Part shown: positions 3,763 through 46,790 of the stretch, one piece after another
Position numbering within the stretch: position 1 is the first letter of the stretch
Layout: every line of letters starts with the position of its first letter
Assembly: GCF_014635705.1 (NCBI RefSeq)
Contig: NZ_BMDI01000005.1
Coordinates: forward strand, 1-51,565
Direction of reading: 5' to 3'
From: Oxalicibacterium faecigallinarum
GTDB lineage: Bacteria > Pseudomonadota > Gammaproteobacteria > Burkholderiales > Burkholderiaceae_D
DNA: 51,565 nucleotides
Translations under genes and position numbers: made by a program
Notes under the pieces: model-generated
What the model saw: only the letters and a program-made list of their open reading frames with translations
Told to the model about the DNA's origin: nothing
The model's database searches: none

Positions 3763-3778
3763 CTTTCGCGCGCGAAAG
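3763..3778. repeat. Dispersed palindrome site 1 (CTTTCGCGCGCGAAAG)
   Basis: Exact match to CTTTCGCNNGCGAAAG, extended to a perfect 20-bp palindrome (3761-3780). Intergenic, upstream of radC. Confidence 0.95.
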
Positions 3779-3819
3779 CTGGACAACTGCACAAAGGCGT
3801 CCGTGGTGTGCAGAGGGTG

Positions 3820-3958
3820 GGGATTGCCTGTCACTTCCAAGGGTATCAGTTCGTTCTCGCCGTCAAGGGCTGCGCGCCCTGAAGGGCGCTTGCGGCCGCT
3901 GGCCGTTTCACCCTTGACCGCTGCGCTGCGAACCGATCCAGAGGAAGTAGGCAATCCC
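3820..3958. other. Nested inverted-repeat element upstream of radC
   Basis: The outer stem is GGGATTGCCT plus ACTTCC (3820-3829, 3833-3838) with the complement at 3943-3958, interrupted only by a 3-base bulge. Inside, GTTCG (3849-3853) pairs with CGAAC (3929-3933), GTCAAGGG (3862-3869) with CCCTTGAC (3911-3918), and GCGCCCT (3874-3880) with AGGGCGC (3883-3889). The whole can fold into one long branched structure. A second short repeat (AGGAAGT 3942-3948, ACTTCCT 3963-3969) would place part of it next to the radC ribosome binding site. Role unknown: single-strand origin, RNA leader or protein-bound cruciform. Confidence 0.65.
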
Positions 3959-3981
3959 GCCCACTTCCTGGAGTCCATGAC

Positions 3982-4476
3982 ATGACCGCTTCGCACATCG
4001 ACCTTTTCACTATTGACGACAACGGCCAGTTTCAACTGGCCAGCGCCGGCCAAGTCATCGAGGCCGCCTTGGCCATCCTTGACGAAAAGGTGATGCGCAA
4101 CGGCCTGATTTCAGCGCCGGCTGACGCCAGCGCCTTCTTCTCGCTGCGCCTCGGGAACCTGGAGCATGAGGTGTTCGCGGCCATCTTCCTGGACGCACAG
4201 AACCGCGTCATCGAGTACATCGAGCTGTTCCGGGGCACGCTGACGCAGACCAGCGTGTACCCGCGCGAGGTGGTGAAGACCTCGCTGCGCCTGAACGCTG
4301 CCGCCGTCATTTTCGCGCACAACCACCCGTCCGGGGTGCCCGAGCCGTCGCGCGCCGATGAGAACCTGACCAGAGTGCTGAAGGACGCGCTCGCCCTGGT
4401 GGACGTGCGCGTGCTGGATCACGTCGTCGTCGCGGGTGGCGCGTCCGTGTCCTTCGCTCAACGCGGCTTGCTGTAG
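3982..4476 (+). CDS. radC: RadC-family JAB-domain protein
   Basis: 164 aa, essentially the JAB/MPN metal-binding domain alone, so shorter than chromosomal RadC (~220 aa), which carries an N-terminal HhH region. The metal-site signature HNHPSG is at about residues 113-118, followed by the conserved SRADENLTRVLKDALALVDVRVLDHVVV stretch. The family is common on plasmids and genomic islands; despite the name, a DNA-repair role is not established. The ATG at 3982 follows CTGGAG. The gene is preceded by a complex structured element and followed by an intrinsic terminator, so it is probably monocistronic. Confidence 0.92.
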   Translation: MTASHIDLFTIDDNGQFQLASAGQVIEAALAILDEKVMRNGLISAPADASAFFSLRLGNLEHEVFAAIFLDAQNRVIEYIELFRGTLTQTSVYPREVVKTSLRLNAAAVIFAHNHPSGVPEPSRADENLTRVLKDALALVDVRVLDHVVVAGGASVSFAQRGLL

Positions 4477-4501
4477 CCGCTGCTGGCCGGGTGAAAAACC
4501 C

Positions 4502-4529
4502 GGCAAACGCCCCTTCGGGGCGTTTTGCC
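4502..4529 (+). terminator. Rho-independent terminator after radC
   Basis: GCAAACGCCCC-TTCG-GGGCGTTTTGC forms a strong stem with a stable tetraloop and a TTTT tract within the 3' arm. It closes the radC transcript. Confidence 0.8.
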
Positions 4530-4648
4530 CGGTAGTTTTAACGACCGTTTTTCCTGCCGGAAAAAGCGGCATTAAAACGTACCTTTTAATTACCATTGAA
4601 TCCGGTAAAATTCGCCCTTTCTGGACAAATAACTACCGTGAGGCCCTT

Positions 4649-4978
4649 ATGAGCGAGCATCGCCCGATCTACGGCGCGAATACAGCCGTTTTGAGCGACT
4701 TTCCCGAGCCGGTGAGGGCAACCCTTCACCTGATCGAAAAAAACCCGTCTAACGAGGCCGCGCTGATCCTGCTCCAGTGCGCCGCTTCCGCCGCGCACCC
4801 GGACTACCTTTTCAGTCTGGCCATGCTCAGTGCTCTCCCCATCGAGTACAAGGAGGCCGCCCTGGAGCTGATCGAGCACAGCCTGACCAGCGGTTTCACC
4901 GTGGACGAGCAAAGCGCACTGCTGCGCTTTGTTGAGCCATTCATGGCCACCGCGCTGCGCGCTCCGCGCGGCCGCTGA
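4649..4978 (+). CDS. Hypothetical protein (109 aa)
   Basis: ATG at 4649, preceded by an AT-richer stretch (4540-4640) that may contain the promoter (TAAAAT at 4606-4611 as a possible -10). A soluble helical protein with alternating Leu/Ala helices and no signal peptide. No recognised family. It is followed after 14 bases by another small gene, which suggests a short operon 4649-6193. Confidence 0.6.
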   Translation: MSEHRPIYGANTAVLSDFPEPVRATLHLIEKNPSNEAALILLQCAASAAHPDYLFSLAMLSALPIEYKEAALELIEHSLTSGFTVDEQSALLRFVEPFMATALRAPRGR

Positions 4979-4992
4979 CGCGCCGGCCCATC

Positions 4993-5319
4993 ATGGCGCT
5001 CGACATCTTCGCGCTGCTGACTTCGGACGGCGATCACGCCCAGGCCGACCACATGTTCACCGGCAAAGCCGGCGACATGCTGGCCGTGGCCGACGTGCTC
5101 GATGCCGTGCATTGTGCGAATCGCCGGCTGCGCGCCGTGCCGGCGCTGGCCCGTCGATTCCGCGATGGCGCTACCTATCCCATTCCCTGCGTGCGACTGA
5201 CCAAAGCCGAGTGCCGCGTCCTGGTGGACGCGATCACCGACTTTGGCCAATCCATGCCCAAGACCACCAAAGCCCGCAAACTCGCTGACCTGCTGGCCAG
5301 CTCCGTTTGCGTCTACTGA
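4993..5319 (+). CDS. Hypothetical protein (108 aa)
   Basis: A small soluble protein with a basic middle (RRLRAVPALARRFRDG). It has no recognisable catalytic motif. It lies 14 bases after the previous gene and 12 bases before a small membrane protein, so it is probably cotranscribed with both. The ribosome binding site is weak, so the start is tentative. Confidence 0.55.
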   Translation: MALDIFALLTSDGDHAQADHMFTGKAGDMLAVADVLDAVHCANRRLRAVPALARRFRDGATYPIPCVRLTKAECRVLVDAITDFGQSMPKTTKARKLADLLASSVCVY

Positions 5320-5331
5320 TCGGAGCCTTTC

Positions 5332-5568
5332 ATGGATGACAAAACCGCCGACCGAGTGATGTCCGCATCCCTCGACTATTTCAGCCGCAGCACCTTCTTT
5401 GCCCTCCTGGTGCTTGTCGCCGGCTGGGGCCTTGGCTGGCTGCTGGGCTTCGCTCTCGCTCGCAGCATCCAATCCAAGACCGGCGCGGCGATCTGCCGCC
5501 GCCTGTGCCCGATTGTGGGCGTGCTGGCCGCCTTCCCGCTCGCCTACAAGCTCATGTTCTCCGCGTGA
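5332..5568 (+). CDS. Small membrane protein (78 aa)
   Basis: Two probable transmembrane helices: about residues 22-43 (FFALLVLVAGWGLGWLLGFALA) and 58-75. Good ribosome binding site (GGAG 8 bases before the ATG). The gene ends 7 bases before the GTG start of the serine recombinase. Function unknown. Confidence 0.6.
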   Translation: MDDKTADRVMSASLDYFSRSTFFALLVLVAGWGLGWLLGFALARSIQSKTGAAICRRLCPIVGVLAAFPLAYKLMFSA

Positions 5569-5575
5569 ATCTGCC

Positions 5576-6193: not shown

Positions 6194-6830
6194 CACCGCC
6201 GGCCCTTCGGCCCGGCCGTGCCAATCCGGTTTCCCCGGCTTCGCTTCTTCCCGGCCTCTCGTTCCCGCTTCGCAGGAACTCGGGCCGTAAATCGCTCCGC
6301 TTGCCTTGGCTCGATGGTGGCCAGCCTTCGGCCGACCACCATCCTTGCCCTATTGCCGCCATCGCCGGCTTTTGCCGCTTCGCTGCAACCGGCGCCGGCC
6401 GCGAAATGCGCGGCCTGGCTTCCGGCTGCCGATAGCCTCTCCGCTACCGCTTCTAGGCTCTCCGCTGCTAGCCCCGTAGGCCGCCACCCTCGCAAACTTG
6501 CTTCGTGTCGCCGGGCCGTCGCGGTTCCCGCTGCCGCCATTCGGCGGCCGTCCCGGCCCGTCCGCTTTGCGGCCGGTAATGCGCAACTTTCGCACGCGAA
6601 AGTCGGGGAGGCGCTGGGCGGCTTCCCTTGCTTTGCTGCGGTTCGCCTTGCGCCTACTCCCCGCTTTCCGGCCTGCTGTTTCGTTCCGCGCTTGTGCCGC
6701 GTCACGCAGGGCCGGAAAGTGCGAAAGGCGAAGACGACTTCCTTCGTTCGCCGCCTTCGCCTTTCCTTGTCACGCAACCGCGCCCCTTCCGTGGCGTCTG
6801 TCGGTTGCCCTCAATTTCTGAATGGCTCCG
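6194..6830. other. Gene-free GC-rich region with hairpins (637 bp)
   Basis: I can support no gene here. It holds an inverted repeat GATGGTGG/CCACCATC (6313-6320 with 6336-6343), one dispersed palindrome (6587-6602) and a stem GAAAGGCGAAG/CTTCGCCTTTC (6723-6733 with 6755-6765). It could contain the recombination site of the adjacent serine recombinase or part of an origin (inference). Confidence 0.5.
6587..6602. repeat. Dispersed palindrome site 2 (CTTTCGCACGCGAAAG)
   Basis: Exact arms with AC in the two-base spacer. It lies in the non-coding region after the serine recombinase. Confidence 0.95.
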
Positions 6831-7052
6831 CTACAGCGTACCCCATTCCCGTTCGTGATCGTCTGTTGAAATGCGCTCCAGGATGCGGCCGCATCCTTCC
6901 GCGTCGTTGTCGTAAAACCCCACGTCGATGCCGTAGGGGTTAGTTAGCCAGATTTCAGCACCGTCCGCATTGATCGCCCAGCCGTCGATTTCCGCGCGGC
7001 CGTGTGTTTTCAGGTGCTGGTGCAGCTCCTGGCTTCCGATGTTTGGCTGCAT
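6831..7052 (-). CDS. Small hypothetical protein (73 aa)
   Basis: The ATG at 7052 is preferred: the frame continues upstream into repeat A, and AAAGG lies upstream of this ATG. The protein is acidic and soluble, with a DGWAINADGAEIWLTNPYGIDVGFYDNDAEG core resembling small plasmid proteins of unknown function. It is isolated on the minus strand between two non-coding stretches. No function can be assigned. Confidence 0.6.
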   Translation of the reverse strand: MQPNIGSQELHQHLKTHGRAEIDGWAINADGAEIWLTNPYGIDVGFYDNDAEGCGRILERISTDDHEREWGTL

Positions 7053-7068
7053 CTTCTTCACCATCCTT

Positions 7069-7203
7069 TGCTGGGCGAATCGTCCCGCTTTGCGGGCCGA
7101 CCGGGCTGCTCCAGGTTCGCGCATTCGCGCTCATCCCCGCTTTGCGGGGACTGCTGCGCAGCCTTGCACATCCCTTTCGCTTGCGCCCTCCGGGCGCTAG
7201 GCC
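7069..7203. repeat. Dispersed repeat A, copy 2
   Basis: Direct repeat of 3616-3745 (about 90 % identical by eye). It lies immediately upstream of the small minus-strand gene that ends at 6831. The gap 7053-7644 consists of this repeat plus structured elements B1 and B2; I see no gene in it. Confidence 0.8.
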
Positions 7204-8656: not shown

Positions 8657-10654
8657 ATGGCAAAGCGTGAGGAAAAGGGGAGTGCGGGCAGCTTCTCCCG
8701 TGGGGCCGAGTTGTGGATGCACCAAGCCCGGCTGTTCGTGGTGGCGATCTGGACGGTCGTGCTGATTTCCATCCTGGCCGGCTTGGGCGTGACTACCGCC
8801 TACTTCTGGAATGCGACGACGGCAGACGAAAAGTACGCGCTGGAGCGGAACGTCCTGGCGCACACGCGGGATGCGCTCTACATGACGGCCGGAAAGATGG
8901 AACTGAACGTCAACGGCGAACTGCGCAAGATGGAAGTGTCGGAGGTAGCCTTGCTGACCGACGACATGGCCGAGGACGCTTGGCGAAAGCTGCGCAACGG
9001 TGGCATGTTCGGCTTGCTGACTTCCATCGGTGTGGTGTTTCTGATCTCTTTGTACTGGTGGGGCTACGGCCGCGAACGTATGCAGGACAATCAACTACGC
9101 GGGGCCAAGCTAGTGGAAGGAAAAGAGCTTGCGCGCCTGATCCGGCACCGCGACGAGGCAAGCCCTTATGAGATTGCTGGCGTACCCATGCGCGTGAAGT
9201 CGGAGACGCTGCATACGCTGTTTGCAGGTGCGCAGGGTACGGGTAAGTCACAGCAGTTTTTCGCACTCATGAAGCAGGTGCGGGCGCGTGGAAAGCGGAT
9301 GATCGTGTATGACCCGACCGGCGAGTTCACCCAAGCGTTCTACCGTGAAGGCAAAGACATCCTGATGAACCCGCTGGACTCCAGAAGCCCGAACTGGAAC
9401 ATCTGGAACGAAATCGCCAAGGACTACCACTTCGACAACATGGCGAACGGCCTGATTCCCGATCCGGCCGAGTCTGATCCATTTTGGGCACTTGCTGGCC
9501 GGATGGTGCTCAAGGACGTAATCGCAGTATTGGGACGCGAGGGCCGCCGCACGAACCGCGACCTCTACAACGCTATCGCCAAGAGCAACCTGGACGCCAT
9601 GCACGCATTGTTGCAGGGAACGGCAGGGGCAACCTATGTTGACCCAACGACCGAGCGCACGGGGATGTCGCTCAAGATGACGGTTCAGAACCAGCTCGAA
9701 GCCTTCCGGTTTTTGCCAGATGAGGGCGAATCGTTCTCCATACGCAAGTGGGTACATGAAGAAGGCGATTCATGGATGTTCATCACCGCACGGGAAGCGA
9801 TGCGCGAGGCATTGAAGCCTGTTTTGTCGTTGTGGATCGACACGGCAATCAAGGCCGTGCTCGACCTGGAGCCTATCCACCGAGAACGGCTTTGGTTTTG
9901 TATTGACGAGCTGCCGACGCTCCAGAAACTGGACATCCTGAAGCTGGCTCTGACGAATACCAGAAAGTACGGTTTGTGTATGGTGCTGGGCGTGCAGGAC
10001 TTCAGCCAGCTCTACGAAATCTACGGGCACGATCTGGCCAAGACGATCATTTCCGGGTGCCAAACGAAGCTGCTGCTGCGTGTGACGGATGGTGCTGCGG
10101 CGAAGCTGTTGGCCGAATTGATGGGGCAGGCCGAGGTGGATGAAAAGGATGAAACCTTGAGCTACGGCCTCAGTTCGCAACGTGACGGCGTGAGCGTTAT
10201 GGCGCGCCGACAGATGCGCGACCTTGTGCTGACATCGGAGATTTTGACGTTGCCCGACATGACCGGCTATCTGCTGGTTCCGGGTGACTATCCCATTGCC
10301 CGTGTCAAGTACGGCTACGTCCCGACCGAGAAACAGGCCAACGGATTCATCGAGCGCGACGGCTTTGCGATCAGCTTCAAGCCGACTACGGCGGCCGCCG
10401 CGCCGGCACCCGCACAGGCGACCGCAGAAGTTCATCAGCAGCCCGCGCCGGAGCAAGGCGACATGCTGGATGATGATGATATGGACGCGCCGGCTACGGT
10501 GGAGGTAATGCGCAACGAAAACGGCGATGTGATCGACAAGGCGACCGGCGAAATCATCAAGCCAGCCGAGAAGGTTTCGCGCGCGAAAGACGATACAGAT
10601 GCGAATTCAGCGAGCCAAGGCAAGAAGCCCAACCCGCTGGCGGATGCGCTATAG
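8657..10654 (+). CDS. traD: Type IV coupling protein (TraD/TrwB family)
   Basis: 665 aa. Two N-terminal membrane helices (about residues 20-48 and 112-135) anchor a cytoplasmic hexameric ATPase. Walker A is GAQGTGKS (about residues 193-200), and Walker B is LWFCIDELPTL near residue 415. A C-terminal ~100-residue acidic/Pro-rich tail probably contacts the relaxosome. Coupling proteins bring the relaxase-DNA complex to the T4SS channel. The gene starts one base after the RHH gene and carries dispersed palindrome site 3 near its 3' end. Confidence 0.95.
   Translation: MAKREEKGSAGSFSRGAELWMHQARLFVVAIWTVVLISILAGLGVTTAYFWNATTADEKYALERNVLAHTRDALYMTAGKMELNVNGELRKMEVSEVALLTDDMAEDAWRKLRNGGMFGLLTSIGVVFLISLYWWGYGRERMQDNQLRGAKLVEGKELARLIRHRDEASPYEIAGVPMRVKSETLHTLFAGAQGTGKSQQFFALMKQVRARGKRMIVYDPTGEFTQAFYREGKDILMNPLDSRSPNWNIWNEIAKDYHFDNMANGLIPDPAESDPFWALAGRMVLKDVIAVLGREGRRTNRDLYNAIAKSNLDAMHALLQGTAGATYVDPTTERTGMSLKMTVQNQLEAFRFLPDEGESFSIRKWVHEEGDSWMFITAREAMREALKPVLSLWIDTAIKAVLDLEPIHRERLWFCIDELPTLQKLDILKLALTNTRKYGLCMVLGVQDFSQLYEIYGHDLAKTIISGCQTKLLLRVTDGAAAKLLAELMGQAEVDEKDETLSYGLSSQRDGVSVMARRQMRDLVLTSEILTLPDMTGYLLVPGDYPIARVKYGYVPTEKQANGFIERDGFAISFKPTTAAAAPAPAQATAEVHQQPAPEQGDMLDDDDMDAPATVEVMRNENGDVIDKATGEIIKPAEKVSRAKDDTDANSASQGKKPNPLADAL
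10574..10589. repeat. Dispersed palindrome site 3 (one mismatch)
   Basis: GTTTCGCGCGCGAAAG, with one outer base differing from consensus. It is inside the 3' end of traD. Confidence 0.85.
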
Positions 10655-14044: not shown

Positions 14045-14060
14045 CTTTCGCGCGCGAAAG
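14045..14060. repeat. Dispersed palindrome site 4 (CTTTCGCGCGCGAAAG)
   Basis: Exact copy, 18 bp with flanks A/T, in the gap between traI and the next gene. Confidence 0.95.
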
Positions 14061-17644: not shown

Positions 17645-17679
17645 TGCTTTCACCGTGAAAGCAAGTTGACTGCTACAAT
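17645..17679 (+). promoter_or_regulatory. T4SS operon promoter with palindromic operator
   Basis: A perfect palindrome TGCTTTCACCGTGAAAGCA (17645-17663; one central C) lies just upstream of a -10-like TACAAT (17674-17679), where the -35 should be. The same palindrome, two bases longer, occurs at 40947-40967. The arrangement predicts repression of the transfer operon by one regulator acting at both sites. Confidence 0.75.
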
Positions 17680-18202: not shown

Positions 18203-18586
18203 ATGGCGTTGCCAGCCAAACCGTTTCGCATTTCTATCGTCTTTGCGCTGGCTGCTGCTGGCGTCACTGCTGCCAATGCGCAGTCACTGAACCAGCCAAA
18301 CCCCCTGGATCGTCTCTCCGACGTGGTGCAGTTCGGCGTCCCCCGCGACACCAAGTTTGTGTTCTGCGACGGGGAAGACTGCCCGGAACGCTCCATCAAG
18401 CACCTGTACGTCCCGCCTCCGCCGCCGCCTCCTGTTCAAGAGCCGGTCATGCCTGCGCCTCAATCCATCCAGCCGCCCGAAGAACTTTCGCACGCGAAAG
18501 TTCCGGCCAAGAAAAAGCCACTGAAGAAGAAGCGGAAGAAGCCCGCGATTCAGTACGAATGCAAGCCTGTCACCAAACCGAAGTGA
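18203..18586 (+). CDS. Exported proline-rich protein with CxxxxCP motif (127 aa)
   Basis: Signal peptide (residues about 1-27, after ANA), then FVFCDGEDCPERSIKHL, a run of seven prolines, a lysine-rich stretch and a C-terminal Cys. The cysteine motif preceding a hydrophilic linker recalls the DYFVPCNPCAAPTPKT region of the OmpA-like protein at 47228. Perhaps it bridges envelope layers near the transglycosylase. It contains dispersed palindrome site 5 in the Lys/Pro region. Function unknown. Confidence 0.6.
   Translation: MALPAKPFRISIVFALAAAGVTAANAQSLNQPNPLDRLSDVVQFGVPRDTKFVFCDGEDCPERSIKHLYVPPPPPPPVQEPVMPAPQSIQPPEELSHAKVPAKKKPLKKKRKKPAIQYECKPVTKPK
18485..18500. repeat. Dispersed palindrome site 5 (CTTTCGCACGCGAAAG)
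   Basis: Exact arms, AC spacer, inside the coding region of the exported proline-rich protein. Confidence 0.95.
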
Positions 18587-22834: not shown

Positions 22835-23481
22835 AGGCACTGGCCTTGACCTTTGGCATCGGGGCCGTGGTGGCCCTATCCGGTTGCAGCAGCATGTCCG
22901 GCTTTGATGCGAAATCCGAATTCGCGTGCAAGGCCCCGGACGGCATCTTGTGCGAGTCGATGAGCGGCATCTACGCCAATGCCCAGGCGAAGAACCTGCC
23001 GGGCCAGCGCGTGAATGCGCGCGGCGAGGCTCCGGTGGAACTTTCGCAGGCGAAAGCCGGCAGCAACGTGATGACCAAGCCCATCTACTCGGGCACGCCG
23101 ATCCGCAGCGCCCCGCGCCTGCTTCGGGTCTGGTTCGCGCCGTGGGAAGACACCGATGGCGATCTGCATGACCAGTCCTACGTGTACCTGCCGGTCGATT
23201 CCGGCCGCTGGCTGATCGAGCACAACCGCCGCCGCATCCAGGACAACTACCGGCCGGTGCGCGCCCCGTCGAATGTGACGGCCCAGGCTGCGCAGCCGCA
23301 AGCGGCCGGCGCTGGCCAGCAACGGCAAAGCCCTGGCGTGCTGGGGCAGCAGCCGACGCCTCCCGCTGACAACGGGATGGAGTCTATCGGCGTCCGTCAA
23401 GACCGCATGAGCAACGAGCAAGCCACCGAGCTGCTGAACGGAATCATGCGCCCCGGCAACGTCATCCCGGACAGCGAATAA
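22831..23481 (+). CDS. traV: T4SS outer-membrane lipoprotein TraV
   Basis: 216 aa. Signal peptide with lipobox VVALSGC (Cys18), then the family motif SMSGFDAKSEFACKAPDGILCESMSGIYANA. VirB7 counterpart that tethers TraK/TraB to the outer membrane. A central LRVWFAPWEDTDGDLHDQSYVYLPVD is characteristic of TraV. It contains dispersed palindrome site 6. Confidence 0.94.
   Translation: MKALALTFGIGAVVALSGCSSMSGFDAKSEFACKAPDGILCESMSGIYANAQAKNLPGQRVNARGEAPVELSQAKAGSNVMTKPIYSGTPIRSAPRLLRVWFAPWEDTDGDLHDQSYVYLPVDSGRWLIEHNRRRIQDNYRPVRAPSNVTAQAAQPQAAGAGQQRQSPGVLGQQPTPPADNGMESIGVRQDRMSNEQATELLNGIMRPGNVIPDSE
23041..23056. repeat. Dispersed palindrome site 6 (CTTTCGCAGGCGAAAG)
   Basis: Exact arms, AG spacer, within traV (encodes LSQAKA). 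Confidence 0.95.
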
Positions 23482-27662: not shown

Positions 27663-28660
27663 AACGCTGGCTTGTAATGGCTTTCATGGTGCTCGCGGCG
27701 ACTTTCGCGCGCGAAAGTATGGCCGGCGTGTGCCAGGGCAAGTTTGCCAACCCCATCACCGATATTTGCTGGAGCTGCCTGTTTCCGCTGACGCTAGGCG
27801 GCACGCCGATCATGACGATGGGCCAGGAGGATACCGGCAACCCTGACGGCTTCCTCTGCACCTGCACCAACCCCCTGCGCATCGGCATCAAGACCGGCTT
27901 TTGGGAGCCGGCGCGGCGCGTGGATGTGACCCGCACCCCGTACTGCTTTGTCTCGCTTGGCGGCATCAAGCTCGATCCCGGTATCCGCGCCCCGGAAGGC
28001 GAGATCCGTTTGCAGCAAGACAACACCAAGCAGTCCAACTATCAGGTTCATTGGTACGCCGATCCGATCCTGTATTGGCTGGAGGTGATCCTGGACAACC
28101 CGTGTCTGGAAACGGGTTCCTTTGACGTGGCCTACATCACCGAAGTCGATCCGACTTGGAACGACGACGAGCTGACCATGTTGCTGAACCCGGAAACCTT
28201 CCTGTTCGGCAACCCCATTGCTCAAGCCGCGTGTGCCGGCGACTGCGTGTTGTCATCGGCCGGCTTTGGCAGTAACGCGCTTTTCTGGTGCGCCGGCTGC
28301 CAGGGTTCGATCTACCCCTTCAACGGCCATGTGCAGGCCCACGTCTCGCACGTTCAAGCCAGCTCGCTGCTGGTGCAGCGCATGACGGCCAAGCTGCACC
28401 GCGAATTCCTGATGTGGGGCACCTCGGGCGCTGACGGCTTGTGTGGCATCTATCCCGAGCCGGTGATGGACAAGACCCAATACAAGTACCAGATGCTCTA
28501 CCCGATCCCGCAGACGGAAAAGATCAACGGGCGCTGCTGCCAACCCTATGGCCGCACGACCGCCATTTGGGGAGCTGGCAAGAGCTACCCGTATGCCGGC
28601 GAAGACTTCGCCTACATGATTTTCCGAAAGAAAAACTGCTGCCTGGGAGTGGGATTCTGA
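27659..28660 (+). CDS. traU: T4SS protein TraU
   Basis: 333 aa. Signal peptide ending ARESMAG, then the TraU signature CQGKFANPITDICWSCLFPLTLGG. Rich in cysteines (about 20), hence the need for DsbC. TraU acts in DNA transfer and mating-pair stabilisation. Dispersed palindrome site 7 encodes the end of the signal peptide. Confidence 0.95.
   Translation: MKRWLVMAFMVLAATFARESMAGVCQGKFANPITDICWSCLFPLTLGGTPIMTMGQEDTGNPDGFLCTCTNPLRIGIKTGFWEPARRVDVTRTPYCFVSLGGIKLDPGIRAPEGEIRLQQDNTKQSNYQVHWYADPILYWLEVILDNPCLETGSFDVAYITEVDPTWNDDELTMLLNPETFLFGNPIAQAACAGDCVLSSAGFGSNALFWCAGCQGSIYPFNGHVQAHVSHVQASSLLVQRMTAKLHREFLMWGTSGADGLCGIYPEPVMDKTQYKYQMLYPIPQTEKINGRCCQPYGRTTAIWGAGKSYPYAGEDFAYMIFRKKNCCLGVGF
27702..27717. 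repeat. Dispersed palindrome site 7 (CTTTCGCGCGCGAAAG)
   Basis: Exact copy inside the traU signal-peptide codons (encodes TFARES). Confidence 0.95.
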
Positions 28661-29436
28661 TGAACAAGAAAACTGTCATCGGGCTGATGCTGCTGGCCGC
28701 TTTCGCCCGCGAAAGCGTGGCGCAGAGCACGCCGTCCGCATCCCAGCTCGACCAAGAACGCCAACGCATCGAGCTTGAACGCAAGCAGATGTTCGATCCG
28801 AACAACCCCGCCTCGAAGGCTAAGAAGGGCGCTATGCCCAACTCGGCCGACATCGACCGGGAAATGCGCCGCGTGGATCGTGAGCGCAAGCAGATGTTCG
28901 ACCCGAACAATCCCGCGACCAAGAACGCCGCCAACGTATTCCCCAACGTGCCGACGCCGGAGCGCGCCGGGATCGACATCGAGGCGCTGGCCAAGCAATA
29001 CGAGCAAAAGGCCCAGGCCCGCAAGATGGATGACCTGATGATTTTCGCCAGCTTCACGATGCCGGCCGAATCGCTCAAGCGGATCGTCAGCCAAGCCAAC
29101 CGGGTGGGGGCTTCCGTGGTGCTGCGCGGTTTCAAGAACAACTCGCTGAAGGATACGGCGCTGGCCATCAAGGAGCTGGGAGAACAGGGCGGCAACGTCC
29201 TGGTGAACCCCAACGCCTTCACCAAGTACAAGGTCAAGGCCGTTCCCACGATGGTGCTGGCCAAGGCCGCAACCATCGACCAAGTGGACAACGAGGGCTG
29301 CGCCCTCCCTGACAACTTTGTGGCGGTGGCCGGTGACGTTTCGCTGGACTACGCGCTGGACGAGATTGTGCGCCGCGCTCCGCAATTTGAACCCGTGGCG
29401 TCTCGCTACCTTCGCCAGATCAGGGGGAACCAATGA
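28660..29436 (+). CDS. trbC: T4SS protein TrbC (F type)
   Basis: 258 aa. Signal peptide ending FARESVAQ. Two tandem copies of a charged segment (ERKQMFDPNNPA at about residues 40-51 and 72-83) precede the conserved domain MIFASFTMPAESLKRIVSQANRVGASVVLRGF. It interacts with TraW and TraU in the periplasm. The repeat makes the N-terminal region longer than I would expect. Start overlaps the traU stop by one base. Confidence 0.92.
   Translation: MNKKTVIGLMLLAAFARESVAQSTPSASQLDQERQRIELERKQMFDPNNPASKAKKGAMPNSADIDREMRRVDRERKQMFDPNNPATKNAANVFPNVPTPERAGIDIEALAKQYEQKAQARKMDDLMIFASFTMPAESLKRIVSQANRVGASVVLRGFKNNSLKDTALAIKELGEQGGNVLVNPNAFTKYKVKAVPTMVLAKAATIDQVDNEGCALPDNFVAVAGDVSLDYALDEIVRRAPQFEPVASRYLRQIRGNQ
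28700..28715. repeat. Dispersed palindrome site 8 (CTTTCGCCCGCGAAAG)
   Basis: Exact arms, CC spacer, inside the trbC signal-peptide codons (encodes AFARES). Confidence 0.95.
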
Positions 29437-31822: not shown

Positions 31823-32181
31823 AAACTCTCTCTATTGCCCTCATTTTGCTGGCCTGCTCGACTTTCGCGCGCGAAAGCCTCGCCGGGCCGACCGTCTATA
31901 CCCGGCAACACGACGTGCTGGCCACTGCCATCCGCAACGGCAGCTCCAGCGGCGTCATGGAGGGGGAGGTGGCCGAGCACTTCACTCGCCAATTCCGCTC
32001 GACCGGGCCGCTGTTGGTGACTGCCAAGGTCATCAAGTCTTTCAGTCGCGCCGACTGCAAGCGCCTTGAAATGGTGTTCACCAAGAAGGATGTGGATACC
32101 CCGCAAGGGCGCACCGACGCGATCCTGAAGACCCAGCTCAACTACTGCCTCGACGGCACCCCGCCAATTTCCGTGGAGTAA
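31819..32181 (+). CDS. Small exported protein (120 aa)
   Basis: Signal peptide ending STFARESLAG; a mature ~97-residue protein with two cysteines (ADCKRL, LNYCLDG). No family recognised. It lies between traN and traF with four-base overlap upstream, and is probably a periplasmic helper of the T4SS. It contains dispersed palindrome site 9. Confidence 0.65.
   Translation: MKTLSIALILLACSTFARESLAGPTVYTRQHDVLATAIRNGSSSGVMEGEVAEHFTRQFRSTGPLLVTAKVIKSFSRADCKRLEMVFTKKDVDTPQGRTDAILKTQLNYCLDGTPPISVE
31862..31877. repeat. Dispersed palindrome site 9 (CTTTCGCGCGCGAAAG)
   Basis: Exact copy in the signal-peptide codons of the 120-aa exported protein (encodes TFARES). Confidence 0.95.
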
Positions 32182-34426: not shown

Positions 34427-37400
34427 GTGGACATCGAAATTCAAACCTACTGGAACGTAGAAACGCTCTACTACGTCTTCAACGCCGTCGCCTCGATGAT
34501 GGCCGGCGCTGGCTTCGCTGGCTTGCTGAAGCTGGTTTTCCTGTTCGCCATTGCAATCGGCATGTTCGGCTACATGAACAAGCAGCTCGAAATGGCGAAG
34601 TGGTTTATCCACGCCTTGGCTTTCGTGACGGTGCTGAATCTGCCGATCGCGCGCGTTGCCTTGACCGACAAGACCGGGCTGGAGCCGCCTCGCGTGGTCG
34701 ATAACGTCCCCTTTGCCCTGGCCGTCACTGCGCAAACGACAAATCTGGTGTTCGGCGCACTGACCAACACCTATGAAACTGTCTTCGGTGTGCCCGAAGA
34801 CTTGGGCCTGCAAAAAGGGGATGTGGGCTTCGGCCACCGCATCCTGAAGCAAGTCAATAACGCGACGATCCGCGACCCCAGCTTGCGCTCCGACCTGATG
34901 CAGTTCATCAAGGAATGCACGCTGTACGACGTGAAAGACGGTGAAATTACCCCGCAGCAGATTGTGGGCGGCACCGATACCTGGAACGTGATTTTCAACA
35001 ACACGAGTCCGGCCCGCTTCGTCACCTACAACACCCTGACGAATGCGCCGACCACCGATACCTGCACCAATGTTGCGGCCATCCTGAAGGAGAAGGTCAA
35101 CGACGCCGTAACGGCTGGCCAAGCCTTCTACGGCAAGCAGGCTTTCACTCGGGCAAGCAGTGATGCCATCGCTACCAGCATGTTCGTTTCGACGGTGGGC
35201 ACGTCCTACGACTGGATTCTGAACAACTCCAGCAACGCCTCCGACGCGATGAAGCAGGCGATGTTCAACAACATCTGGAAGGAGGCCGGCACCGAGCTGC
35301 CGGCGCTGCTGAACGATCCTGCGCGGGTGGCCGAGGTTAATGCCCTGGCCGGCGCTGCCCAGGCGGCACGGCAAGCTGACGGCTCCAACAGCACGTTGAG
35401 CCTGCTGGCCCAAGAGACGCTGCCCCACATGCGCAACTGGATCGAGGCAATCATCTACGGCCTATTCCCGGTTGTTGTGGTTCTGATGGTTGTCAGCTCG
35501 ACCGAGGGTGCAAAGAAGATCATCGCGGGCTACATGATGTCGCTGGCCTGGATCGGCCTGTGGCCAATCTTGTTCGCCGTCATCAACCACCTGTCGCTCA
35601 TGCACTTGCGCTACAAGGCGCGCGCGCTGGAGCTGGCGGCCGGTGTGCCGTTCCAGCTCACCGATGCTTTCGACGCCACGCTGACCAACGAGCAGGCGGC
35701 CATCGGCTACATGGTTGTCCTAGTGCCATTCATCGCCGGGGCCATCATCAAGCTGGGGCAGGGCGGTTTCATGGGTGTTGCCGACCGGATGATGACCGGC
35801 TTTGCCTCTGCCGGCGCAGCGGTGGGCGCAAGCAATGCCAGCGGCAATGTCAGCATGGGCCAAGCTGGACTTGATACCGCATCGGTCAACACGACCTCGA
35901 TGAACAAGTACGACAGCAACATCGGCCTGCAAGGCGGCGGGGCAACCATCGGCCGAGGCAATGGCTCGACGGCCACAATGGCCGCGAACGGCGCGGTTGC
36001 CTTGCAGCAGCTTCAAAACCGGATGCTGACGCAGATGAACATGGATCACCGACTGGAAGCCGGCCGCAACCAGGAAGCGCATCGTACCGACATCACTTCG
36101 ACCGGGGATCAACTGGCGCGCCGGCACGGCGACAGCTCAAGCCTCACGGACGTGAAGGGGCACGATACAACCCGTGGCCAATACCAGAACACGGGCGTGG
36201 TGGCGGCTCGCGGGAGCGAGGGCGGGTATGGTGGCCAACACTCCACTGGCCAGAACTTGGATCGCAACTTCCGTGAGGGTTCGCACTTCCGCACGGCGGC
36301 CGGTGCCAATGACCAGCTCCACATGAATTTGGGTGTTGGCCGTGGGAACCCCAACGGCGGCGGTGCTCCTGGTGCGGGTGGCGCGGGTGGCGCGCCTGAT
36401 CCGCGCGAGGAAAAGCGTATTGCTGACGCCATGAAGCAGGGCGGCGCGAACCAGCAACAGATCGACCAGGCGCTGAAGAACTACCGTGGCGGCAAGGGCG
36501 GTGCCCAGCCTTCGGGCAGCCTCATCAACGCGGGCCTGGGCTACAACGGCGCGAAGACCTACACCGCCGAGCACGGCCGGGATCGGGGCGTGGATACGGT
36601 TCATGGCAACCAGGAGGCCGCGCGCACCGAGCGCACGTTTGCTGAACGCGGCTCCCGCACCGAGCAGGCCGGGACGGGCAATCAATCGGCCCAAAACGAC
36701 CGCCACGGCCGCGATGCCGCCCTTACGAACGTGGATGAGGTTTCCCGCGTGCGTGATGTCTCTGATCGTCGTGAATTCGGTACTGGCGACCGCGCCAACC
36801 GTAGCGACAGCAACAGCTTCACGACTCACAAGGATCTGATGGCCGATCCGTATCTGTTCGAGAAGGTGGCAGCGCGCAATGGCATGACCGCCATGCGTTT
36901 CGCCAACCAATCCGAAGACCGGATCATGGACATGGTGCAGGACTACGTGAGCGAGAAGGGCATGGTTCAACAAGCCACCACCATGCCGCAGCAGACTTTC
37001 GCAGGCGAAAAACTGCCGACCACGAAGGGCGAGCTGGAGAGGCAATCCGCCAAGGATCGCGCCGGCATCCCGCAGGACATCCAGGGCGTCCACAAGAAGA
37101 AGGTGGGACAGACCGGCTACGGCGGAACCGCTCCGCTCAAGGTCGATACCTCTGCGCCTCCGATCATTGCGGAATCCAGAGGGGACGTACAGGGCCAGCT
37201 CGACCCGAAGAACAAGGGCAGCATCCCGGCGCGTGCCGGGGCCTTGGACGAGAACGTGAATGCCTGGGCCAGCCCGGACAAGGCTGTTGGCGCTGGGCGG
37301 GCCAACCCCGCAGCCGTCAACGAGGACAACATGATCCGCGACGGCAAGGACACCGTTCAGAAGGCTTGGGACAAGCTGACTGGCGGCGACGGTACGGCAG

Positions 37401-37810: not shown

Positions 37811-38064
37811 TATTGTTCCTCAATAACCAGCATCACGTAGGTGGCCGTGTTTTTGTCGTCTTGCATATGCACGACACGGAAGCCTTTTTCGTAAATCTGC
37901 TTGATCGTCACCTTGCCGATGTGTTCGCACTGCAACACCGAGTCGCCACCACGGAAGGGGCCGATGCAGACACCGCCACGCTTCGAGGCGGCTGCTTGGG
38001 CGCTGGCGTTCGTCATGCCGGCAAGTGCTGCCACGATGAAAGCAGCGTAAAGCATTTTTTTCAT
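37810..38064 (-). CDS. Small periplasmic protein (84 aa)
   Basis: AAGGAGAG lies before the ATG. Signal peptide (about residues 1-24, after SAQA), then a ~60-residue domain with two cysteines (GGVCIGPFRGGDSVLQCEHIG) and beta-rich KGFRVVHMQDDKNTATYVMLVIEE. There is no lipobox, so it is unlike classical Eex lipoproteins. Candidate periplasmic exclusion or immunity factor with the gene downstream (inference). Confidence 0.6.
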   Translation of the reverse strand: MKKMLYAAFIVAALAGMTNASAQAAASKRGGVCIGPFRGGDSVLQCEHIGKVTIKQIYEKGFRVVHMQDDKNTATYVMLVIEEQ

Positions 38065-38147: not shown

Positions 38148-38477
38148 ATGAGTCAGATATTCAAGACTGTTTCCGCAGCGTGTGGCCATGTGTCGCGTGC
38201 TGTCTTCGTGAAAGCAGCGCGGCGGCTGGGTCTTTCGTCCGAATCTTACCGCATCGCTGATGAAGTGTTCCTCAAAGGCTACCGGCAGGCAACCGTCGCG
38301 CGCCACGTCGGCGTCTCGCGTCAACGGGTGCATTCAGTGTGCCGGGAGCTGCTGGAAGAAATCAACAACCAACTTTCCCCTGAAAGGGCAACCGATGAAA
38401 AAACTTCTCCTGATTCTCATTACCACGGCCACCTTGGGCGGATGTGCTTCGCAACAGCCTCTCAGCATGAGAAATGA
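38148..38477 (+). CDS. TrfB/KorA-like transcriptional regulator
   Basis: 109 aa from ATG 38148 (AAGGGG upstream). Residues about 14-80 (FVKAARRLGLSSESYRIADEVFLKGYRQATVARHVGVSRQRVHSVCRELLEEI) resemble the KorA/TrfB DNA-binding domain of IncP plasmids, with helix-turn-helix QATVARHVGVSRQRVHSVC. KorA-type proteins repress several plasmid operons from one palindrome. Its likely targets here are the CTATTGAC-type operators or the TGCTTTCAC palindromes. The last 27 codons overlap the next gene in another frame. Confidence 0.8.
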   Translation: MSQIFKTVSAACGHVSRAVFVKAARRLGLSSESYRIADEVFLKGYRQATVARHVGVSRQRVHSVCRELLEEINNQLSPERATDEKTSPDSHYHGHLGRMCFATASQHEK

Positions 38478-39279: not shown

Positions 39280-39546
39280 ATGAGCATGGATGCCTTCTAC
39301 CTGCAATGGATCGGCTGCGCGTTTGGGGTGCTGGGGGCCTTGATGCTGGCCCTCAATAACCGCTTGTCCGGCTGGGGCTTCGTGTCTTTCCTGGCCTCGA
39401 ATGTCTGCTGGATCGGCTTCGGCGTCATGACCGACGCGCCGGGCCTGATCTTCATGCAAGTGGCTTTCACTGCCACCAGCCTGCTAGGCATTTATCGCTG
39501 GATGCTGGCCAAGCCCGACTTTCGCGCGCGAAAGCAGGAGGGGTGA
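39280..39546 (+). CDS. Small membrane protein (88 aa)
   Basis: Three hydrophobic helices (about residues 7-28, 32-50, 54-72), then a basic tail KPDFRARKQEG encoded partly by dispersed palindrome site 11. No assigned function. It starts one base after the protease stop and overlaps the next gene by one base. Confidence 0.6.
   Translation: MSMDAFYLQWIGCAFGVLGALMLALNNRLSGWGFVSFLASNVCWIGFGVMTDAPGLIFMQVAFTATSLLGIYRWMLAKPDFRARKQEG
39519..39534. repeat. Dispersed palindrome site 11 (CTTTCGCGCGCGAAAG)
   Basis: Exact copy at the 3' end of the 88-aa membrane protein gene. Confidence 0.95.
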
Positions 39547-40946: not shown

Positions 40947-40967
40947 TTGCTTTCACCGTGAAAGCAA
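40947..40967. promoter_or_regulatory. Palindromic operator, second copy
   Basis: The 19-bp palindrome TGCTTTCACCGTGAAAGCA of the T4SS promoter recurs here with one more matching base on each side, 37 bases before the next ATG. CTATTGAC, possibly a -35, lies at 40893-40900. Predicted promoter/operator of the toxin-antitoxin region. Confidence 0.75.
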
Positions 40968-42574: not shown

Positions 42575-42590
42575 CTTTCGCGCGCGAAAG
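42575..42590. repeat. Dispersed palindrome site 12 (CTTTCGCGCGCGAAAG)
   Basis: Exact copy directly after the fic stop codon, between fic and the following membrane protein gene. Confidence 0.95.
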
Positions 42591-43359: not shown

Positions 43360-45042
43360 ATGGCTGGGGAGGTTTCCAAGTACGCAATGGAGAGCGCCTA
43401 CAAGGATGTAGAGCGCGATGCACTGGCAAGAACGACGGCGCAGGAGAATCCGAAGGCGATCCTGTTGGGCGGCCAACCAGGATCGGGCAAATCGGCGCTG
43501 GCCGCCGAAGCGATCCGCGAGCTGCGCGCCAACGGCGGCGCTGTGGTGATCGACGCCGACCGGATGCGCGAGGAAAACCCGCGCTACAAGCAGCTTTCGC
43601 GCGAAGACCCCCAGCACGCCGCCGACCGAACGCAGAAAGAGGCCGGCGAATGGGCTACCCGCCTCACGTTGGCCGCCGTGGAGAACCGCCGCAATCTGGT
43701 GGTGGACGGCACGATGCGCAGCCCGGAGAACATCCGGGACTTGACCACTCGCCTGAAGGAACAGGGTTACGAGGTGGAGGCCCGAGTGTTGGCCGTCAAC
43801 CCGGAAACCTCAGTGACCCGCGCACGGCTGCGCTTCGAGGAACAGGTGGCCGAGCGCGGCACCGGGCGATTCGTCAACAAGGAACAGCACGACAACGCCT
43901 ACAACGGCATGGTGGAGTCAGTGCGCGCCTTGGAGCGCGACAAGCTCACCGACTCGGTGCGCGTCTATGACGCCAATCAACGGCAAATCTACGAGAACAG
44001 CCAAGAGCGCGGAGAGTGGAAGCGGCGAGCAGCAGCGGTTGAGGTGTTGGAGCAGGAACGCGGGCGCGCTTGGACGCACGCCGAGCGGCGCGATTACGTG
44101 TCCGCCCTGGACGACATCAATACGCTGGCCAAGCAGCGGGAGGGTGTGCGCGACAACGTGACCTACACCGTGGGCACCGTGGCCAAGAACGATGCGAAGG
44201 ACTACAGCAACGTCAATGAAGCCGCCAGGGCCTTCCGGGATGCCAAGGCTGAAGACCAGCCCTATGTGATCCGCACCGAGCGCCTTCCCAATGGCCGGGA
44301 GTCGGCCTCGACGCCGGGGCAGACCACGTACACCGAGAAAGATGGTGTGCGGGAGTATGGCAAGTACATTGGGGGCAACGACGAGGCCCTAAAGCGGGCC
44401 TACGCTGATGCCTTGCGGCCGGAACAGGAGCGCACCGCGCGGCCGGTGCTGGCCGACCGTGACGAGCTGGCGGCCAAGCTCGAAGCGGCTCGAAACGACT
44501 TGGCCCGCTTCGAGCAGACCCCAGCCTATCAGCGCGCCCAGGCATTCGACCAGCTCACCAAGCGCGAGGCGCTGGAGCGCCACCCGGACCTGGACGGGGC
44601 CTACAAGCAGCTTCACGACATCAAGCAGAGCTGGACACCTCAGACCAGTCAAGGCCAGCGGGAAACCAGCTACTTCAATGCGCGTGCCGAGCTGTCCGAG
44701 CAGCTTCACCGGGGCCGCGTCCCGGAGGGCAGTGTCACCGTGGATGAGTCGCGGCGCGTGATCGACATGGCCGCCAGTCACCGGGGCTTGGTGGTGCGGG
44801 ATGCGCAAGAACTCAAGCAGGACGTGAAGGGCGAAGTGGTGGCCACCTCATCGCATCACGCCCTGGTGAAGATGTCCGACATGGTGGCTGTGCGCTACGA
44901 GAAGGACGGACTAGATCGGGATGTCCGTGTGGGCGAGAAAGTGACGATCCAGCACGGCAACGAAAAGAGTCAGGTGTACGAGCAGGGCAAGGAGCCGGCG
45001 CGGGAGAACGCGCGGGACGTGGGCCGGGACATGGGCCGGTAA
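43360..45042 (+). CDS. Zeta toxin with long C-terminal extension
   Basis: 560 aa. The N-terminal ~230 residues are a zeta kinase: Walker A GGQPGSGKS (about residues 36-44), DADRMREENPRY, and a nucleotide/UNAG-binding VVDGTMRSPENI. Family members phosphorylate UDP-N-acetylglucosamine and block cell-wall synthesis. A central ~160-residue region includes RTERLPNGRES. The last ~150 residues (KREALERHPDLDGAYK to QVYEQGKEPAREN) are closely similar to the Fic C-terminus. Twice the length of a minimal zeta toxin. Confidence 0.88.
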   Translation: MAGEVSKYAMESAYKDVERDALARTTAQENPKAILLGGQPGSGKSALAAEAIRELRANGGAVVIDADRMREENPRYKQLSREDPQHAADRTQKEAGEWATRLTLAAVENRRNLVVDGTMRSPENIRDLTTRLKEQGYEVEARVLAVNPETSVTRARLRFEEQVAERGTGRFVNKEQHDNAYNGMVESVRALERDKLTDSVRVYDANQRQIYENSQERGEWKRRAAAVEVLEQERGRAWTHAERRDYVSALDDINTLAKQREGVRDNVTYTVGTVAKNDAKDYSNVNEAARAFRDAKAEDQPYVIRTERLPNGRESASTPGQTTYTEKDGVREYGKYIGGNDEALKRAYADALRPEQERTARPVLADRDELAAKLEAARNDLARFEQTPAYQRAQAFDQLTKREALERHPDLDGAYKQLHDIKQSWTPQTSQGQRETSYFNARAELSEQLHRGRVPEGSVTVDESRRVIDMAASHRGLVVRDAQELKQDVKGEVVATSSHHALVKMSDMVAVRYEKDGLDRDVRVGEKVTIQHGNEKSQVYEQGKEPARENARDVGRDMGR

Positions 45043-45057
45043 GAAAGGGAGAAAAAC

Positions 45058-46269
45058 ATGGCGATCTACCAGATTGGCGGGCAATCCATTCATTCCGACG
45101 ACCCAGGCTTGCCCGAGCTGCTGGCCCGCATCTACAGCTCGCGGGAGCGGCCGTTGTGCCTGTGTCGCACCCCCGGCATTGAAATGTACGTGGCCAAAGT
45201 TGATGAAAAGTACCTCATCAAACGGATGCCCAATTCTGGTAGCGGCCACGCCCCGGCCTGCGATTCCTACGAGCCGCCGCCCGAGCTGTCCGGGCTTGGC
45301 CAAGTCATTGGCTCCGCGATCCAGGAGAACCCCGACGAAGGCACCACGGCGCTGAAGTTCGACTTCGCATTGTCCAAGGGCGCGAGCCGATCCGCGCCGG
45401 CACCGAGCGGCAAGGAGACGGATAGCGTCAAGACCGATGGCAACAAGCTGACCCTGCGCGGCACCCTGCATTACCTGTGGGAAGAAGCAGGTTTCAACCG
45501 CTGGGCACCGACGATGGCCGGCAAGCGCAGTTGGTACGTGATCCGCAAGTACCTGCTGCAAGCAGCCGAGGACAAGACGGCAAAAGGCGCGAGCTTGGCC
45601 GGAATGCTCTACATGCCCGAATCGTTCAACGCCGAGAAGAAGAACGAAATCACCCAGCGGCGACTCGCGCAGATGATGCGAATCGCCACACCCGAGAAGG
45701 GCACACGGCGCTTGATGCTTGTGGTGGGGGAAGTGAAGGAACTGGCTCAGTCACGCTACGGGCACAAGATCGTCCTCAAACACCTGCCCGATTGCCACTT
45801 CATGATGAACGACGACATCTACAAGCGGCTGCTCAAGAGGTTCGAGGTGGAGCTGGGCCTGTGGGATGCCTTGGAGGGCACCCACCTGATGATGATCGGC
45901 ACGTTCAGCATCGGCGCTACCGGCGTAGCCTCGCTGGAGGAAGTCGCGTTGATGTGCGTGACCGAGAACTGGATTCCCTTTGAAAGCACCTTCGAGAAGA
46001 TGGTGCTCGATGCGCTGACGCAGCAGAACCGGCGATTCATGAAAGGGATGCGGTACAACCTGCCTTCCACGCGGCCGCTGGCCTGCGCGGTGGCTTCGGA
46101 TACCGAGCCGGAGCCGACCGCCATGTACGTGGTTCCGCCTGGGGCCAGTGAAGACTATGCGGCCGCCGTCGATGAATTGATTGCGGAAAGCAAGCTCCCT
46201 TCATGGAAGTGGGTGGCTGGCGAGGCTCCTATGCCGGCGCTGCCCGAGCTGCCGGAGCACGGCCGATGA
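45058..46269 (+). CDS. DUF1173 protein
   Basis: 403 aa. N-terminal segment with clustered cysteines (LCLCRTPG, HAPACDSYEPPPE) that may bind metal, then GTLHYLWEEAGFNRWAPTMAGKRSWYVIRKYLLQAAED, typical of the DUF1173 family found on plasmids and conjugative elements. Function unknown. It overlaps the next gene by four bases (ATGA). Confidence 0.78.
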   Translation: MAIYQIGGQSIHSDDPGLPELLARIYSSRERPLCLCRTPGIEMYVAKVDEKYLIKRMPNSGSGHAPACDSYEPPPELSGLGQVIGSAIQENPDEGTTALKFDFALSKGASRSAPAPSGKETDSVKTDGNKLTLRGTLHYLWEEAGFNRWAPTMAGKRSWYVIRKYLLQAAEDKTAKGASLAGMLYMPESFNAEKKNEITQRRLAQMMRIATPEKGTRRLMLVVGEVKELAQSRYGHKIVLKHLPDCHFMMNDDIYKRLLKRFEVELGLWDALEGTHLMMIGTFSIGATGVASLEEVALMCVTENWIPFESTFEKMVLDALTQQNRRFMKGMRYNLPSTRPLACAVASDTEPEPTAMYVVPPGASEDYAAAVDELIAESKLPSWKWVAGEAPMPALPELPEHGR

Positions 46270-46790
46270 TGGGCGCCCTACTCCGCTTCGTCGGCATTCG
46301 CCCGACCGTCGCCCCGACTTTCGCGCGCGAAAGTCTGCCGGTGAATCCCCGCGCGCCACGCTGGGCGCTTCAGCGTGCGCCCCGTGGCCCCGTCCTGATG
46401 CTGGACATCGACGGGGTTCTGCACCCTGGCCAGTCTGGCACGCTGATTTACCTGCCCCTGCTGGAAACGTGGCTGCGAGCGCATCCCGATGTTGATGTGG
46501 TGATTTCATCCAACTGGCGCGAGACACACACGCTGGATGAGCTGCGCAACTTCTTCTCCATAGAGCTGCGCGAGCGCGTTATCGGCTGCACGCCCGTTTT
46601 GCCTGATTGCACCAGGCTGGACGAGATCCTTTGCGTTGTCCGCGAGTACGGCGTCACCCAATGGGCCGCCCTCGATGACCGCGTGCAGGAATTTCCAGAT
46701 ACACGCCGGCTGGTGGCCACCGAGTACCTGGACGGACTTACCGGGGAGTCGCTGCTTCAGCTCACCCGCGTGATGTGGGCAGCGCCGTGA
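46266..46790 (+). CDS. HAD-superfamily phosphatase-like protein
   Basis: 174 aa. HAD motif I LMLDIDGVLHP, motif II Ser in VVISSNWRETH, and motif IV acidic pair in WAALDDRVQEF. A small cap-less HAD of the plasmid type; substrate unknown. The N-terminal ~30 residues contain TFARES encoded by dispersed palindrome site 13. It overlaps both neighbours. Confidence 0.85.
   Translation: MMGALLRFVGIRPTVAPTFARESLPVNPRAPRWALQRAPRGPVLMLDIDGVLHPGQSGTLIYLPLLETWLRAHPDVDVVISSNWRETHTLDELRNFFSIELRERVIGCTPVLPDCTRLDEILCVVREYGVTQWAALDDRVQEFPDTRRLVATEYLDGLTGESLLQLTRVMWAAP
46318..46333. repeat. Dispersed palindrome site 13 (CTTTCGCGCGCGAAAG)
   Basis: Exact copy, extended to a perfect 20-bp palindrome (46316-46335), near the 5' end of the HAD gene. 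Confidence 0.95.

Follow-up and report, generated by a model that had tools for sequence, protein, structure and literature searches.

A dispersed palindrome that is very probably the binding site of the plasmid's own ParB

The window analyzed here, a stretch of 51,565 nucleotides of contig NZ_BMDI01000005.1 (C5) of Oxalicibacterium faecigallinarum (assembly GCF_014635705.1), contains 13 copies of the 16-bp palindrome CTTTCGC-N2-GCGAAAG, and we conclude that this palindrome is very probably the O_B/parS-type binding site of a KorB-like ParB protein that the same plasmid encodes on contig C7. Eleven of the window copies are exact and two, at 10574 and 36996, carry one mismatch; a pattern search reproduced exactly all 13 coordinates and mismatch counts given in an earlier note on this DNA. 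The note's judgment that the copies are far above chance is borne out by 100 shuffles of the window, in which matches with no more than two mismatches averaged 0.37 per shuffle and reached 2 at most. Its statement that most copies lie inside genes also stands, with eight of the 13 intragenic by homology to the genes of the plasmid pALIDE201, and nine if a hypothetical gene annotated in pYAZ2 is counted. These eight sites occupy all three reading frames and are therefore a repeat of the DNA and not of a peptide; the flanks of the 13 copies are dissimilar.

In the genome (3.33 Mb in 10 contigs), exact copies number 14, with 11 on C5, three on the 12.6-kb contig C7 and none on the remaining contigs. 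One-mismatch copies are found twice on C5, once on C7 and once elsewhere, which brings C5 and C7 together to 17 copies (13 and 4) at no more than one mismatch. None of the 12 two-mismatch matches in the genome falls on C5 or C7, the reversed control pattern gives 19, and the 16.5-kb contig C6 has no match at up to two mismatches. C5 and C7 align over 64,129 bases to two circular plasmids, at 98.4% to pYAZ2 (Comamonas testosteroni) and at 95.9% to pALIDE201 (Alicycliphilus denitrificans), and since they match the same circles we take them to be one plasmid. The window is its transfer half, with genes for a coupling protein, a TrwC-type relaxase, TrbI/TraB, TraC and TraG, while C7 holds the replication and stability genes, including those for KfrA and an RPA-type RepA. 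Both pYAZ2 and pALIDE201 are typed in PLSDB as MOBF, MPF_F and rep_cluster_1864.

The earlier note had suggested that the binder is encoded outside the window, and C7 indeed encodes a candidate. A 430-residue ParB (L005:3170-4462) with ParB_N (6e-18) and KorB (2.1e-5; 24.8 bits against a cut-off of 22.3) domains in Pfam, and with the ParB-box motifs GERRYR and ENNDR, lies between ParA (L005:2378-3157) and a KorA/TrfB-like protein (L005:4541-4921; domain 8.1e-13) that is 39% identical to R751 KorA over 83 residues. One copy of the palindrome, at 4501 on C7, stands between parB and korA, and another, at 1863, between a second palindrome (O_A, discussed below) and the ParA-ParB-KorA operon. The only other ParB_N proteins of the genome are two on contig C1.

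Conservation of the sites

The constant arms and variable two-base spacer described in the earlier note are also seen across relatives. In five close plasmids the arms are identical at all 17 aligned sites (238 of 238 positions in each). The plasmid of Denitratisoma retains 202 of 210 arm positions at an overall identity of 77%, and 11 of its 15 aligned sites keep every arm base, against a background of 8.3% of masks (binomial P 1e-9); of its four other sites, that at 28700 is clearly lost and the remaining three correspond to mismatched copies on our own plasmid. In B. savannae seven of eight sites are fully kept, compared with 2.4% of random masks (binomial P 4e-11). Of the spacer bases, Denitratisoma retains 21 of 30 and B. 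savannae 10 of 16.

Conservation in excess of that at synonymous sites, which the earlier note had named as a test, is present in both plasmids: synonymous third positions within the arms are identical at 29 of 30 in Denitratisoma and at 17 of 17 in B. savannae, whereas the remainder of these genes gives fractions of 0.60 and 0.53. The corresponding figures for two Mycetohabitans plasmids are 14 of 17 (P 0.01) and 13 of 19 (P 0.14).

The sites track the ParB across relatives

We searched 19 named plasmid records for the palindrome at up to one mismatch and measured the identity of each ParB to that of C7. The palindrome was matched in 17 of the 19 records and the reversed control pattern in none. 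Nine large plasmids with a ParB at least 94% identical hold 18-23 copies each, and the 37-kb pIPM3H3 (96%) holds nine; further away, 34 copies are found in Denitratisoma (83%), in a record of seemingly about 1.9 units, 21 in B. savannae (63%), and 13 and 18 in the Massilia plasmids WG5 (40%) and H6 (34%). Herbaspirillum (31%) has no copy of this form, which we call C-type after its outermost base; Nitrogeniibacter, with 37% identity over less than half of the protein, has none, and B. multivorans (26%) has two. Two Mycetohabitans plasmids that keep the transfer genes and other ParB_N proteins, without this ParB and KorA, have four and three copies, and from its sequence the palindrome appears to be in partial decay there.

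An unbiased palindrome scan of 19 sequences, made up of our own contigs and every record but that of B. multivorans, with Denitratisoma covered to 80 kb, ranked the palindrome, its six-base core or an extended form first, with at least seven copies, in 15 of the 19; in Mycetohabitans HKI454 the palindrome came first with four copies. As a positive control, the scan returned from R751 the known O_B, TTTAGC-N-GCTAAA, in 10 exact copies.

Among 392 genomes of the family, an exact C-type copy occurs in 22 and a ParB of this type (E 1e-20) in five. At least 10 exact copies are found in four genomes: our own and two with site positions as in the Massilia records, all three with the ParB, and G159, which lacks it. 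As all six of the examined loci in G159, out of 11 exact copies, share their flanks, these six represent one repeated element. An equal density of the motif in other DNA, the other test set by the earlier note, is thus found neither in the host's other contigs nor in the family genomes.

The site pattern of the 124.8-kb Denitratisoma record (NZ_LR778302.1, L031-L034) recurs after about 66.8 kb, whereas two 60-base probes have no second exact occurrence in its first 80 kb. Perhaps this record consists of two related units, as a cointegrate or a mixed assembly.

Candidate binders and alternative explanations

To narrow the binder, proteins of pALIDE201 were searched by tblastn (E 1e-4) in six C-type sets: our own contigs, pIPM3H3, Denitratisoma, B. 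savannae and the two Massilia plasmids. Seven were matched in all six, namely the coupling protein, the DUF3560 protein, one small protein, the protein upstream of ParA, ParA, ParB and KorA. KfrA, RepA, HU, the resolvase and a second KorA-like protein encoded in the window have no match in either Massilia plasmid, and the response regulator and relaxase are matched in Massilia and have no match in pIPM3H3, which has nine sites. ParB and KorA are the known sequence-specific DNA-binding families among the seven common proteins, and since there is a better candidate for the site of KorA, ParB is the most likely binder.

The nearest alternative is that the palindrome is an ordinary repressor operator, bound by the KorA/TrfB-like protein or by the second KorA of the window. 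KorA is a DNA-binding protein by family and is present in all six sets; however, the separate palindrome O_A lies on a -35 box, as would be expected of a KorA operator, most of the window sites are intragenic, with several in the long tra cluster, and the second KorA is unmatched in Massilia plasmids that keep the site. We therefore regard a KorA operator as unlikely. It is more improbable still that the site belongs to a nucleoid protein, recombinase, response regulator or methylase of host or plasmid. The plasmid family does encode HU, KfrA, a resolvase, a response regulator and a cytosine methyltransferase (Dcm), but tblastn at the same threshold finds no match for HU, KfrA, resolvase or Dcm in the site-keeping Massilia plasmids (H6 has a cytosine methyltransferase of its own) or for the response regulator in pIPM3H3, and the host's other contigs have no exact copy. 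Transcription terminators or attenuators would account for a palindrome with several copies just past stop codons; against them, the spacer is only two bases, the 15-base flanks have no run of five T, three sites stand 40-43 nt into transfer-cluster genes, and the arms are conserved while the spacer varies, so that this explanation has very little to recommend it. Least credible of all is an origin in composition, a shared peptide or a mobile repeat: the copies in G159 are a repeated element, and those within the O_B-O_A module described below are repeats of one sequence in this plasmid family, but the shuffles, the reversed control, the three reading frames, the dissimilar flanks of the 13 copies and the synonymous conservation all speak against it for this plasmid.

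Several observations weigh against ParB as the binder. KorA co-occurs with ParB, so covariation alone cannot separate them. Eighteen of the 392 family genomes hold one to four exact copies, and of the three that were looked into (G291, G352 and G329), G352 has a related F-type transfer cluster, KorA and two O_A-type palindromes with, as judged by eye, only a remnant of ParB, and a 15-kb stretch of G329 has no homologue of the plasmid proteins. In the Mycetohabitans plasmids HKI454 and B60, which lack this ParB, two of seven aligned sites in each keep our own arm bases and the others are changed, although HKI454 has a third site that is a perfect consensus where our copy is mismatched, giving three of seven intact and four exact copies in all. 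ParB identity alone does not predict the site, as the Massilia ParBs (34-40%) go with C-type sites and those of G257 and G291 (35-36%) with the A-type sites described below, and the deep order of the ParB tree is not resolved. The nearest O_B is more than 1 kb away for three of five O_A palindromes in B. savannae, one of six in H6 and two of eight in WG5. No KorB C-terminal (SH3-like) dimer domain is among the Pfam matches of the C7 ParB at E 1e-3, and an AlphaFold model of a 96%-identical ParB, made from an 8-row alignment, has a mean pLDDT of 49.5 and is too poor for use. With these points taken into account, the ParB gene, the covariation and the conservation still support the earlier note's comparison with dispersed KorB/ParB-type sites, and we infer that the palindrome is bound by the C7 ParB.

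The G352 element itself, on contig C10 (L161, L162, L170), is of the F-type and carries both palindromes and korA, with the ParB remnant beside korA.

A second specificity class

Herbaspirillum has 12 copies of TTTCGC-NN-GCGAAA, nine of which have an outer A/T in place of C/G (ATTTCGC-NN-GCGAAAT). This A-type palindrome, AATTTCGCATGCGAAATT, is also found on the ParB contig of the draft genomes G257 and G291, with two copies in the 4.1-kb ParB contig of G257 and two copies and one variant in 40 of the 85 kb of contig C38 of G291. G257 has the ParB and no C-type site; G291 has the ParB and also four C-type sites, but these lie on other contigs in regions that encode no homologue of the plasmid proteins. 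In a ParB tree the proteins from Herbaspirillum, G257 and G291 group together (support 94/96), and the C-type ParBs fall in two clades, our own (85/97) and that of Massilia (99/100), whose mutual relation the tree does not resolve; the long G352 branch in this tree is not to be trusted. In the putative recognition-helix stretch, the residues that follow a shared W-V/I-S/A-K-R differ between A- and C-type ParBs, and this difference may cause the switch in specificity.

A second palindrome at promoters

With the first palindrome masked, the next in pALIDE201 is CTATTGAC-N-GTCAATAG, in five exact copies that precede the genes for primase, ParA-ParB-KorA, SSB, DUF3560-kleA and one small protein. 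The window has one copy and C7 has three. The window copy, CTATTGACGGTCAATAG (63..79), covers the -35 element of a promoter-like TTGACG-17-TAGAAT (66-94) before the DUF3560-kleA genes, and by its position the palindrome is likely the KorA operator, here called O_A. The earlier note had set the CTTTCGC sites apart from promoters; this is right in that most are intragenic, with the addition that some are tied to promoters through the KorA-type palindrome. Measured from O_A, the first palindrome is at about -70, +108 or -500 bp in group A plasmids, in B. savannae at -433 and -435 bp for two of five copies, and in Massilia, where a looser O_A pattern was used for both plasmids, at -402 to -407 bp for four of six copies in H6 and four of eight in WG5. 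For the remaining O_A copies of B. savannae, H6 and WG5 the nearest first palindrome is 73 to 2,702 bp away.

The cases at -500 and -404 bp all represent a single conserved module, and their common distance is therefore inherited. This non-coding module of about 500 bp between both palindromes stands upstream of the primase, SSB and DUF3560-kleA genes, at 43500-44080, 63461-64040 and 66786-67370 in pALIDE201 (L013 3480-4100, 23440-24110 and 26765-27400), and is recognizable in the Massilia plasmids, whose ParB is only 34-40% identical. Both of our own contigs start inside such a module, 62 bp before the O_A palindrome, and since they start at the same palindrome the assembly seems to break at these repeats. 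The module may be a leading-region single-strand promoter (Frpo/ssi-like); folding of its single-stranded DNA gives z of -1.6 and -2.5 on the two strands, which is not decisive for an Frpo-type promoter, and an Rfam search of the module gave no match at E up to 0.1.

We propose that a ParB dimer would bind the CTTTCGC palindrome through its helix-turn-helix domain, bind CTP, close as a clamp and slide off along the DNA, and that the many loading sites would in this way spread ParB round the plasmid and yield a partition complex for ParA. At promoters marked by O_A, the KorA-like protein would hold the clamp and exclude RNA polymerase, with the outcome that the partition, leading-region and other operons would be held low.

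Spacing of the sites

The 12 gaps between the window sites have a mean of 3.5 kb and a coefficient of variation (CV) of 0.31; only 2 of 20,000 random placements were as even, and the maximum gap was matched in 1 of 20,000. The plasmids pAOVO01, CP094347, pACP3.3 and pACP4.4 have CVs of 0.31-0.34 (0 of 5,000 placements each), one Denitratisoma unit 0.34 (0 of 20,000), pALIDE201 0.44 (P 0.0002), with its longest gap coinciding with an inserted efflux operon, and B. savannae 0.53 (P 0.0014). Evenness is weak in pYAZ2 (P 0.03) and pRK1-4 (P 0.02), and in pDCB1, Pandoraea, pIPM3H3, both Massilia plasmids, Herbaspirillum and R751 the spacing is not significantly even. Because close plasmids share their sites by descent, these tests amount to one observation on one lineage. 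It is conceivable, if somewhat doubtful, that selection has set the sites about 3.5 kb apart, which would let ParB clamps loaded within genes, those of the roughly 20-kb transfer cluster among them, coat the whole plasmid, as a chromatin-like system that would combine partitioning with silencing from within transcription units, in place of a centromere with a few operators.

Positions of the sites and neighboring features

The individual sites, for which no strand is given, were placed by pattern search and gene homology. Exact copies lie before radC in an intergenic position (3763..3778), downstream of the resolvase gene and within the hypothetical gene of the pYAZ2 annotation (6587..6602), 42 bp past the mobF relaxase gene (14045..14060), within a hypothetical gene of the tra region (18485..18500) and within traV (23041..23056). 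Three more are found 43 nt into traU (27702..27717), 40 nt into trbC (28700..28715) and 43 nt into a hypothetical gene after traN (31862..31877), followed by those at the end of a hypothetical gene 12 nt ahead of the next start (39519..39534), in the gap directly after the Fic gene (42575..42590) and 49 bp past the DUF1173 gene (46318..46333). The one-mismatch copies are near the 3' end of the coupling-protein gene (10574..10589) and within traG (36996..37011). The sites in traU, trbC and the gene after traN, three different genes of the transfer cluster, all read as the peptide FARES.

A third palindrome, TGCTTTCA-N3-TGAAAGCA, occurs as TGCTTTCACCGTGAAAGCA just before the lytic transglycosylase gene that opens the tra cluster (17645..17663), with a second exact copy before a second gene group (40948..40966). 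Two-mismatch copies at 38026 and 38198 flank the start of the second TrfB/KorA-like gene (38148..38477, + strand; KORA domain 1.8e-7), whose product may be the binder of this third palindrome. A zeta-toxin-like protein with a C-terminal KfrB domain is encoded near the transfer region (43387-45042).

Comparison with known systems

The predicted KorA/KorB-type regulon comprises a binder, a loading site, a promoter site and two natural specificity classes, and its environmental conjugative plasmids occur in Comamonas, Acidovorax, Alicycliphilus, Cupriavidus, Diaphorobacter and Pandoraea, with a 37-kb relative in Pseudomonas. The regulon could be used to study how the specificity of ParB/KorB evolves (CTTTCGC versus ATTTCGC). 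It could also show whether an entire replicon is covered by sliding clamps, a question for which R751, with its unevenly spread O_B sites, is unsuited. Among the open-access papers listed, no title or abstract opening gives an account of this palindrome or of a KorB site of this plasmid family, which is weak evidence of absence. The kind of system is known from IncP KorA/KorB; this operator, its system in this plasmid family and the even spacing of about 3.5 kb we found nowhere described.

The parS sites of chromosomes and of Burkholderiales secondary replicons (Bsr) are few and near the origin, whereas 17-23 copies are spread over our plasmid and its large relatives with a ParB at least 94% identical. 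As described in PMC5450999, these parS sites are likewise 16-bp palindromes bound by a helix-turn-helix ParB, but with a central CG in place of the two variable bases seen here.

The resemblance to IncP-1 is closer. According to PMC11790492, KorB of RK2 is loaded as a clamp at O_B and slides as far as 1.5 kb, and at O_A on the promoter KorA holds the clamp; the second palindrome on promoters and the arrangement of proximal and distal O_B are shared with our plasmid. As in the IncP-1 plasmids RK2 and R751, to the extent that they are covered in PMC11790492 and PMC2680271, there is a ParB-family protein with ParA and KorA as neighbors, half-sites that start with TTT, and a dozen or more dispersed copies (12 O_B at up to one mismatch in R751, against 17 palindromes on our contigs). 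The site, however, is (C)TTTCGC-N2-GCGAAA(G) and not TTTAGC-S-GCTAAA, and the IncP operator TTTAGCSGCTAAA is absent from the window even when two mismatches are allowed. The O_A-type palindrome likewise differs in sequence from that of RK2, the gene order is ParA-ParB-KorA in place of KorA-ParA-ParB, the spacing CV is 0.31 compared with 0.73 in R751, and the KorB C-terminal domain was not detected in our ParB by Pfam (E 1e-3). While IncP-1 plasmids have a MOBP relaxase, MPF_T and TrfA (R751 is typed MOBP, MPF_T), ours has a TrwC-type (MOBF) relaxase, an F-type type IV secretion system and an RPA-type RepA. By this analogy, we regard the plasmid as one that is not a member of IncP but would work like the IncP KorA/KorB system.

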